Under the pieces are notes generated by a model, which ran no database searches, had not been told where the DNA came from, and was given only the letters and a program-made list of their open reading frames with translations. This document shows, one piece after another, positions 13,085 through 20,340 of a stretch of 64,000 nt of DNA (positions are counted from its first letter, which is position 1; every line of letters starts with the position of its first letter). The stretch is from Phycisphaerales bacterium (GTDB lineage: Bacteria; Planctomycetota; Phycisphaerae; Phycisphaerales; UBA1924). The position numbers were made by a program, and so were the translations under genes. Location of the stretch: the NCBI GenBank assembly GCA_040221175.1, contig JAVJVK010000004.1, positions 1 through 64,000 of the forward strand. Reading direction: 5' to 3'.

Positions 13085-14194
13085 TTACACGTTGAACAGG
13101 AAGTGGCAGACGTCACCGTCACGCATGACGTAGTCCTTGCCCTCCACGCGCATCTTGCCCGCTTCCTTGATGGCCTTCTCGCTGCCGTACTGATCGAGCA
13201 CGTCCACGCTGTAGATGTTGGCGCGGATGAATCCTCGCTCGAAGTCCGTATGGATGACACCGGCCGCCTGTGGGGCCGTCGCACCCTGACGCACCGTCCA
13301 GGCCCTGATTTCCTTCTCGCCGGCGGTGTAGAAGCTCTGCAAGCCAAGGAGCCGGTAGGCCTCGCGCGCCAGCTTCGCCAATGCCGGCTCGTCCATCCCG
13401 TAATCGGCCAGCATTTCCACCTTGTCGGCTGGATCGAGTTCGGCCAGTTCGCTCTCGATCTTGGCGCAGACGGGTACGAACGCGTTTCCTTCGCTGCGTG
13501 CATGCGCCGCGACCAGTTGTGCCATGTCTCCCTGGCCGGCGGCATCGCTTTCGTCGACGTTGGCGATGTACAGGATGGGCTTTGCGGTGATCAGACCCAG
13601 GCCCCTCCAGGCCTTTCGCTGCTCGGCATCGATGATGCTTTCGGCAATCACCCGTGCGGGCCTGCCTTCATCCAGGACGGGCTTGATCTTCTGCAGCACC
13701 GCGAACCGGGCCACCGCCTCGGGCTCGCGACTCTTGGCGGCGCGCTCGGCCTTGGACAGTGCGCTCTCGACGGCCTGGAGATCGGCCAGCAGCAGTTCGC
13801 TGTTGATGGTCGCGATATCGCGCATCGGATCGACCGAGCCATCGACGTGCAGGATTTCCTCACCGCCGGGTGCCTTGGTGAAGCACCGCACGACCTGAGC
13901 GATGGCGTCGACCTCGCGGATGTTGCTCAAGAATGCATTGCCCTTGCCCGCGCCCTCGCTCGCCCCGCGCACCAGGCCGGCGATATCCACCAGCCGCATG
14001 ACGGCGGGAATGACCTTCTGGGTCTTGATGTGCTTTTCGATGCGGGCGAGGTTCGGGTCGGGGATGGGCACGATGCCGACGTTGGGCTCGATAGTGGCAA
14101 ACGGGTAGTTCGCCGCCAGAGCGCCGGCATTCGTCAATGCGTTGAAGAGGGTCGACTTGCCGACGTTGGGCAGTCCGACGATGCCTGCGTCCAT
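13085..14194 (-). CDS. ychF: ribosome-associated P-loop NTPase YchF
   Basis: 369 residues, Obg-like family, usual length. P-loop 'GLPNVGKST' at 7-15, switch region '[21 protein letters not shown]' near 68-88, and the C-terminal TGS domain ('[39 protein letters not shown]', ending '[11 protein letters not shown]'). Family members hydrolyse ATP in preference to GTP and act at the ribosome in stress responses. Isolated gene, convergent with the Lon-N gene. The tRNA-Arg gene lies upstream on the other strand. Confidence 0.95.
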
Positions 14195-14366
14195 GGGGTG
14201 GGGTTCCGGTGCTTGGGGCGTTTCGATCTGAAAGGGGCAAAGGTATGCGCGCCCGCGTCCATCTTGCGGTTATCTGGCGGCCCAATCCGCCCCGCGCCTG
14301 GCCCGAGGACCGATCTCGTGGTCTACTTGCCGGTGAGGTCCGGGGTACACTGTCGCCTGAACGCGA

Positions 14367-14749
14367 GCGCTCGTAGCTCAGCAGGACAGAGCAACGGTTT
14401 CCTTCGGCAAGAGGGGCCCGGCCCGGAAACGGGCCGAGGCGAACCGGGTGAACTCGGGGAAACCCCACCCACGATCTGGTCGTGGCGGGCAATCCCGAGC
14501 CGAGCCGTCGGCGGGGCCCGGGCACGCTCCGAGAGCGAGTCTGGTGCTGGCGGAAGGTGTAGAGACCAGCAGGTGAGCCGCCCCGGCAATACCCCTGCAC
14601 CGGCGGTGGTTGATGCCACCAACGGAAGCGCCCGGCGCCCTCCCCGGCACGCAACGACGCGCCGGCGGGCGAAGAGATGGTCCGGTCCGTGGCGAAAGCC
14701 TCGGGGTTACCGAAACCGTAGGTCGGAGGTTCGAGTCCTCCCGGGCGCG
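14367..14749 (+). tRNA. tRNA-Arg(CCU) interrupted by a group I intron
   Basis: Exons 14367-14403 and 14713-14749 join to a complete tRNA. The acceptor stem GCGCTCG/CGGGCGC has one G-U pair. The D arm is GCTC...GAGC and the anticodon stem ACGGT/ACCGT. The loop TTCCTAA carries anticodon CCU at 34-36. The variable loop is AGGTC, the T arm GGAGG-TTCGAGT-CCTCC, and the discriminator is G; CCA is not encoded. It reads the AGG codon. Without removal of 309 nt the anticodon loop cannot form. No second tRNA-Arg(CCU) gene is visible in the window, so if none exists elsewhere splicing would be needed to decode AGG. Confidence 0.9.
14404..14712 (+). ncRNA. group I self-splicing intron (IC3-like) in tRNA-Arg(CCU)
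   Basis: 309 nt inserted between tRNA positions 36 and 37. P1: exon UCCU plus intron UC pair with GAGGGG (14411-14416) across a GGCAA loop, placing the required U-G wobble at the 5' splice site (U14403-G14413). P2 is a stem GCCCG-GAAA-CGGGC (14421-14434). P4 pairs CTCGGG (14453-14458) with CCCGAG (14494-14499) in the Q-like element 'AATCCCGAGC'. The R-like element 'GGTGTAGAGACCA' (14556-14568) pairs with the S-like 'TGGTCC' (14678-14683) to form P7 (GACCA/TGGTC). The intron ends in G14712. No homing-endonuclease frame fits. Splice points are inferred from tRNA geometry. Confidence 0.88.
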
Positions 14750-14823
14750 TTGTACCAGGAAGCCGGCGAATGGAATGCCGGCGACACACCAGGACGGAGC
14801 CACAGCCTCTCGCGGAGGCGGGC

Positions 14824-20266: not shown

Positions 20267-20340
20267 TGGGCCTGACAGGATTCGAACCTGTGACCTCACC
20301 GTTATCAGCGGTGCGCTCTGACCAACTGAGCTACAAGCCC
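20267..20340 (-). tRNA. tRNA-Ile(GAU)
   Basis: On the minus strand: acceptor GGGCTTG/CAGGCCC (one G-U pair), D arm GCTC...GAGC, anticodon stem with loop carrying GAT, T arm around GTTCGAAT, and discriminator A. CCA is not encoded. It is a stand-alone gene rather than part of an rRNA spacer, since no rRNA flanks it. Confidence 0.95.

Follow-up and report, generated by a model that had tools for sequence, protein, structure and literature searches.

The window, the whole 64,000-nucleotide stretch of DNA that was analysed, carries a tRNA-Arg(CCU) gene whose exons, at 14367-14403 and 14713-14749, lie around a 309-nt insert at 14404-14712. The insert breaks the gene in the anticodon loop, after anticodon position 36. 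When the exons are joined, ARAGORN reports a single 74-nt tRNA-Arg(cct), and the joined sequence is identical at 68, 68 and 70 of 74 positions to the intact tRNA-Arg(cct) genes of three relatives (L043, L044 and L045). The gene and its neighbour are arranged as follows.

14367..14403, + strand: 5' exon of tRNA-Arg(CCU), up to anticodon position 36 (U); from ARAGORN on the joined exons and from intact homologues
14404..14712, + strand: very likely a group I intron, 309 nt, with a terminal G; from alignment, structure and covariation
14713..14749, + strand: 3' exon of tRNA-Arg(CCU); from ARAGORN on the joined exons
13085..14194, - strand: YchF/OLA1 GTPase gene, neighbour of the tRNA gene in the window and in the congeners checked (G002, G004 and G006)

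In a DNA search of 61 genomes, both the exons and the insert were matched in 12, comprising all seven searched genomes of the window's genus (the match in G007 being in two pieces) and five others of the family. The search also returned 18 further loci (L043-L060), which ARAGORN identifies as 16 uninterrupted tRNA-Arg(cct) genes and two tRNA-Arg(tct) genes. As the uninterrupted tRNA-Arg(cct) genes of relatives represent the natural empty site, they fix the boundaries of the intron. An earlier note on this DNA had given the insert the same coordinates, length, U and G splice sites and P7 pairing (GACCA/TGGTC), and had held that the split tRNA is restored only without the insert, all of which agrees with the present analysis.

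The structure of the insert was worked out manually for the window copy and evaluated across 12 aligned introns, the window copy included. Its elements are listed here, with their behaviour in the alignment.

14400..14416, + strand: P1, 14400-14405 with 14411-14416; splice-site pair U14403-G14413, a U-G in 12 of 12; two double-change pairs
14417..14439, + strand: P2 hairpin; changes on both sides in five of nine pairs
14444..14635, + strand: P3, 14444-14450 with 14629-14635; invariant in 12
14453..14499, + strand: P4 (14453-14458 with 14494-14499) around P5 (14463-14465 with 14487-14489); paired in 12 of 12
14504..14558, + strand: P6 (14504-14506 with 14556-14558), invariant, and P6a (14507-14512 with 14546-14551), three double-change pairs
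14562..14683, + strand: P7, the guanosine-binding helix, G14562 and G14564-A14568 with U14678-C14683; A14563 bulged; invariant in 12
14569..14598, + strand: P7.1 (14569-14573 with 14594-14598) and P7.1a (14577-14579 with 14585-14587); three double-change pairs
14600..14626, + strand: P7.2 hairpin, by eye from the alignment; absent from one relative (L042)
14636..14671, + strand: P8, 14636-14640 with 14667-14671; double changes in two of five pairs
14684..14711, + strand: P9.0 (14684-14685 with 14710-14711) and P9, capped by a GAAA loop (14687-14704); terminal G at 14712

Standard pairs occupy 98.4% of the 815 cells of the alignment, and double-sided changes occur in 19 of the 68 pairs (37 cells). 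None of 500 shuffles attains any of the five structure measures, and shifting the structure by one to three columns lowers pairing to 33-49%. Together, these values argue that the fold is not due to chance. Pairs with double changes are found in P1, P2, P6a, P7.1, P7.1a, P8 and P9, and one-sided variation in P4 (one pair) and P9.0; the inner P9 helix pairs in 81.3% of cells. The helices of the group I core, P3, P4, P5, P6, P7 (with its bulged nucleotide) and P8, are paired in all 12 copies. Among these, P3, P5, P6 and P7 are invariant and therefore rest on position and sequence, as covariation is no test there.

Additional comparisons were made at 80 loci among the matches listed. An exact complement of P7 occurs within 200 nt 3' of the 5' strand in 77 of these, in the forms TAGTC (56 loci), AAGTC (16), CAGTC (4) and TGGTC (1). 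The single TGGTC belongs to L122, which looks to be G032, a member of the window's family. The misses are L106, L093 (the end of the locus is reached) and the chance match L157. A terminal G is present in all 23 extracted introns, a count that carries little weight because a G before the 3' exon was itself part of the pattern searched for. The P1 helix with its U-G pair, the succession of P2 to P9, the P7 helix with its bulged A and the covariation in 12 copies suggest that the insert is very likely a group I intron, in line with the original identification.

Standard tools miss this gene. With default ARAGORN and Rfam gathering thresholds, the sole report in the window is a tRNA-Ile at 20267-20340. 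The Rfam group I model, RF00028, has no match in the window's genome, and none at E<=10 in 14300-14800. The earlier note had named the lack of a covariance-model hit as grounds for refutation; such a hit is indeed lacking for RF00028, but the model itself reaches its cut-off at four of 20 comparison loci drawn from the matches listed (one of them, L157, a chance pattern match) and misses 16, and it is thus too insensitive to serve as a test of membership. In its intron mode, ARAGORN calls a tRNA at 73 of the 80 comparison loci among the matches listed. It also finds the window gene, with the insert misplaced and the gene called tRNA-Gly(acc), so the tRNA names it gives to other introns are unsure. 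A covariance model of the intron 5' core, R1, was built from the 12 copies and finds 78 of the 80 loci among the matches listed; this is mild support and in part unsurprising, because the loci had been chosen by a motif that lies within the model and L122 is apparently a family member. A tRNA-resident ribozyme clade thereby escapes default ARAGORN and RF00028, and genomes that carry it seem to be without tRNA-Arg(CCU).

Group I introns of the IC3 subgroup are defined by missing P7.1 and P7.2 between P7 and P3. The window intron had been compared to IC3-type tRNA introns, and it does share with the group I introns of bacterial tRNA anticodon loops (in tRNA-Leu, Ile2, fMet and others, the IC3 types of Azoarcus and cyanobacteria included) the class of host gene, the interrupted loop, the U-G pair in P1 and the R and S elements. 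However, in the 12 introns P7.1 lies between the 5' strand of P7 and the 3' strand of P3, as does P7.2 in most copies by eye, and the interval that is bare in IC3 is occupied in the window intron. The hairpins characteristic of group IA are both there, P7.1 by covariation and P7.2 by eye. Most of the 80 comparison loci among the matches listed, as representatives of bacterial tRNA introns, pass directly from P7 into P3 by eye, whereas the window intron has P7.1 and P7.2. Following L122 and the window, the top R1 scores among the matches listed fall on records of Microgenomatus, Moraniibacteriota, Rhodopila, Parcubacteria and Berkelbacteria (100.3 to 79.5 bits), and a second tier on records of Opitutia, Fibrobacter and Verrucomicrobia (65 to 59 bits); introns in tRNA-Met/Ile2 and tRNA-Leu score 45 bits and below. 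Among the named comparison loci in the matches listed, the best R1 scores outside the family belong to P7.1-bearing introns. With these scores and the hairpins between P7 and P3, the IC3 comparison becomes doubtful, and the window intron appears to be a P7.1/P7.2-bearing variant rather than IC3-like in outline. As to the host gene, Agrobacterium reportedly has a group I intron in tRNA-Arg(CCU), and ARAGORN assigns the intron of L134, from a Burkholderiales metagenome-assembled genome, to tRNA-Arg(cct).

P7.1 and P7.2 are named among the features that tell group I classes apart in a review (PMC3984707), and as IA2 features in another paper (PMC4227781). The window intron resembles group IA introns, such as the IA2 introns of phages and IStrons, in these hairpins of domain 7, and differs in that its P9 is one short hairpin as opposed to the P9.1 and P9.2 described for IA2 IStrons (PMC4227781). 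Furthermore, unlike the IA2 introns of phages and IStrons, it resides in a tRNA, and neither a transposase nor an endonuclease was seen. Additional group I-like introns in tRNA genes, with hairpins that resemble P7.1 by eye, occur in other families of the phylum (L231 and L235).

Group I ribozymes splice by an established chemistry. By this scheme, the transcript would fold into a ribozyme, guanosine bound in P7 would cut after U14403, held in P1 by the guide sequence, and the freed 5' exon would then attack after G14712, so that anticodon positions 36 and 37 become linked. We infer that the window intron splices in this way.

Of 163 genomes of the family, 23 are matched by R1, representing 16 of 74 genera, under strict filters by which weak matches are lost. 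An intact anticodon-arm pattern, with one mismatch allowed, occurs in 75 of the 163; part of these were checked with ARAGORN, and the match in G030 has the anticodon CGT, not CCT. The intron model and the intact pattern were found together in none of the 163 genomes. Neither was found in 65, in part because the pattern is narrow, as two genomes, G012 and G066, have an intact gene by ARAGORN. With family members included, R1 matches 20 of 397 genomes in a sample of the class and 14 of 392 in a sample of the phylum. Outside the family, ARAGORN intron mode places R1 introns in tRNA-Asn, Leu, Met, Pro, Gln and Pyl, with unsure placement, and leaves the tRNA of L232 and L236 unnamed; in G608, from another family of the phylum, the exons read as tRNA-Arg(CCU) where ARAGORN says Gln. 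For a putative planctomycete host, PF07596, a family typical of planctomycetes, gives three weak matches above its cut-off in the window's genome, against none in 14 control genomes. Among the papers listed in a literature search with limited coverage of subscription journals, no title or abstract concerns a planctomycete tRNA-Arg group I intron or an intron-split replacement tRNA carried by an element.

Within the window's genus, the intron looks to have been inherited in place beside ychF, being present in all seven genomes searched, with tRNA-Arg(CCU) adjoining ychF in the four checked (G000, G002, G004 and G006). Across the family, intron identity tracks kinship loosely, with a correlation of 0.34 to YchF identity in 17 genomes (136 pairs; G022, with a partial YchF, is in the YchF tree and outside these pairs, and the YchF data contain no row for G001, G003, G005 and G007). 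Within this set, intron identity peaks at 92.6%, between G067 and G182, whose YchF proteins share 60.2% identity. These two form an intron clade with G021 (support 100/98), and unusual exons are common to all three. In the YchF tree, G067 groups with its congeners G012 and G066, apart from G182 and G021. The similarity between the G067 and G182 regions is confined to the tRNA-gene sequence, and the congeners of G182 (G181 and G183) have an intact tRNA-Arg(CCU) of another sequence. The intron tree, from which the G087 intron, truncated by a contig start, was excluded, has good support on two of 20 inner branches. On the scale of the family, the intron has a patchy distribution, and on at least one occasion it probably passed from one genus to another, together with the whole tRNA gene. 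In the relative G067 one vehicle can be seen, an integrative element that disrupts the resident tRNA-Arg(CCU) and supplies an intron-split one in its place.

The most interesting part of this distribution is the link of the intron to integrative elements in the relative G067. In its congeners G012 and G066, tRNA-Arg(CCU) is intact; in G067, an element of about 15 kb has broken the resident intronless gene at the anticodon loop, leaving the following arrangement.

L298:9693-9735: 5' half of the resident tRNA-Arg(CCU), 43 of 43 positions identical to G012
L317:14672-14714: 3' half of the resident gene, 42 of 43 identical to G012, about 15 kb from the 5' half
L298:8237-9547: tyrosine recombinase of the element (PF00589, PF13356, phrog_1)
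L298:7849-8221: complete intron-split tRNA-Arg(CCU) of the element, 15 nt from the recombinase

Compared with the intact G012 locus, one flank is 89% identical across 656 nt and the other 92% identical across 654 nt. The core GTTTCCTAAACG is present at both ends of the element, the tRNA is rebuilt at neither, and the intron falls within the attachment core. The intron-split tRNA sits inside the element and not at the resident locus. Other genes of the element encode a methylase, a HATPase protein with weak similarity to restriction enzymes, and a Prim-Pol protein.

Matches to the G067 recombinase at E<=1e-20 occur in six of 163 family genomes, G067 included. Beside four related recombinases, in G067 contig 12, G084, G092 and G094, there is a complete tRNA-Arg(UCU), and on their other side the 5' half of an ordinary tRNA-Arg(UCU) of the family (compare L307). 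For three of these recombinases, the matching 3' half lies 9-10 kb past the complete tRNA; the fourth is without one in 20 kb. As the comparison holds no empty site, we only infer that these halves are a former resident gene, and the four (L330, L331, L332 and, in G067 contig 12, L328-L329) likely form a family of tRNA-replacing elements. The recombinase of G115 is in two pieces beside a tRNA-Arg(tct), and no resident halves were found in two tRNA-Thr(tgt) cases (G026 and G067 contig 1). The 5' halves of an intronless tRNA-Arg(CCU), cut after CCTAA, are found in G067 and three further genomes, where they are repeated.

L346-L349: repeated tRNA-Arg(CCU) 5' halves in G134
L350-L352: the same in G135
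L353-L354: the same in G020

In G134, three halves and one complete tRNA-Arg(CCU) are spaced 40-44 kb apart, as would result from tandem insertion of elements into the anticodon loop. Sequences weakly similar to the G067 integrase lie near one of these halves and near one of the two tRNA-Arg(CCT) genes of G113.

The G067 case resembles tRNA-dependent lysogeny (PMC10865867) in three traits, namely a host tRNA that is broken and not rebuilt, an element tRNA of the same isotype, and a short core. The twist is that the putative replacement is split by an intron, a word that occurs in the available text of that study once, in the title of a reference. In addition, that system concerns actinobacteriophages and comes with experiments, whereas the G067 element has Prim-Pol and methylase genes. 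In archaea, a model was proposed in which an intron is delivered by attP (PMC3293823), and Randau and Soll, as cited in PMC4390854, regarded tRNA introns as protection against integrases. The archaeal proposals have introns both shielding tRNA genes from integrases and travelling on elements (PMC3293823; PMC4390854; PMC8371274). Intron-containing tRNA genes of Thaumarchaeota do act as integration sites, which argues against a general shield (PMC8371274). The G067 case is like these models in that a mobile element delivers an intron-bearing tRNA and the intron interrupts the attachment site. Unlike in the models, the G067 element carries a whole second tRNA gene, and archaeal tRNA introns depend on an endonuclease for cutting, whereas a group I ribozyme is found here in bacteria. 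G067 provides a bacterial case of an intron-split tRNA as the putative replacement tRNA of an element, and the idea of protection from integrases becomes testable with a self-splicing intron.

For the locus as a whole, we are highly confident that the best explanation is a group I intron in tRNA-Arg(CCU), predicted to be self-splicing, apparently inherited in place within the genus, and patchy and probably transferred in the family. Reverse splicing and ancient inheritance had been proposed for its spread, and to these can now be added the element-borne split tRNA of G067 and an HNH-type frame in a related intron. A purely vertical history, in which an ancient intron was lost many times in the family and transfer is unnecessary, is possible, if rather unlikely: it accords with the presence of the intron in every genus genome searched, with the ychF neighbour in the four checked, and with the use of the same site in G608 by exon reading, but not with the discordance of G067 and G182, which have odd exons in common, or with an intron-split tRNA that in G067 lies within an integrative element, off the resident locus.

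Spread by a homing endonuclease whose gene was later lost is doubtful. In its favour, R1-matching introns of 584 and 575 nt occur in G256 and G355, both of the class, that of G256 containing the HNH-type frame (L223:1562-1972), which matches PHROGs and, against Pfam, nothing at 1e-3 and HNH at E=0.011. However, ARAGORN places these two introns in a different host tRNA, tRNA-Asn(gtt), and the 22 full introns of the family measure 288-349 nt, which leaves little room for an endonuclease gene. The window intron, for its part, has three frames open throughout, none of which matches an endonuclease family, or any other family, in Pfam or PHROG at E<=0.1, in agreement with the claim that it lacks a homing endonuclease.

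Beyond self-splicing and transfer within the family, a bolder and quite unlikely idea is that the intron is retained for its interruption of the attachment site in the anticodon loop, and that elements carry replacement tRNAs proofed in this way, spreading the intron without a homing endonuclease, with the window copy as a settled descendant of such cargo. A split tRNA-Arg(CCU) would still make tRNA, yet might escape integrases that target its anticodon loop. The arrival of the window copy on such an element is conjecture. At E<=1e-20, no G067-type integrase occurs in the window's genome, although distant integrases below that threshold are possible; there is none in the 16 kb around the window tRNA, and a tRNA-half remnant is absent from the window. 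With neither element nor remnant at the locus, shield and cargo both stay at the level of hypotheses for the window. Among 15 intron loci with flanks, copies of tRNA halves are found solely at the element of G067 itself (none at the 14 others), and a Fisher test of the shield with guessed denominators gives p=1, the data having no power.

In the window's genome, 45 tRNA matches above the cut-off and three weaker ones were scanned with ARAGORN, which gives the Arg anticodons CCG, TCT and ACG and no intact tRNA-Arg(CCU). The earlier note had suggested that, if the genome has no intronless copy elsewhere, AGG decoding would depend on self-splicing; such a dependence is doubtful because a tRNA-Arg(UCU) is present (L018), and in three genes of the window five of the 80 Arg codons are AGG. 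The same tRNA-Arg(UCU) and the rarity of AGG could fit a decayed intron in a tRNA pseudogene, with the tRNA no longer made, yet this is very improbable given two intact exons that form a tRNA fold, an intron core kept over 12 copies with compensatory changes, and the intact-arm pattern in none of the 23 intron-bearing family genomes. A tRNA intron spliced by proteins was likewise rejected as unlikely, given the U-G pair, the terminal G and the full P3-P9 core. The tRNA genes of the window's genome look complete save for tRNA-Arg(CCU), with one gene for most anticodons.
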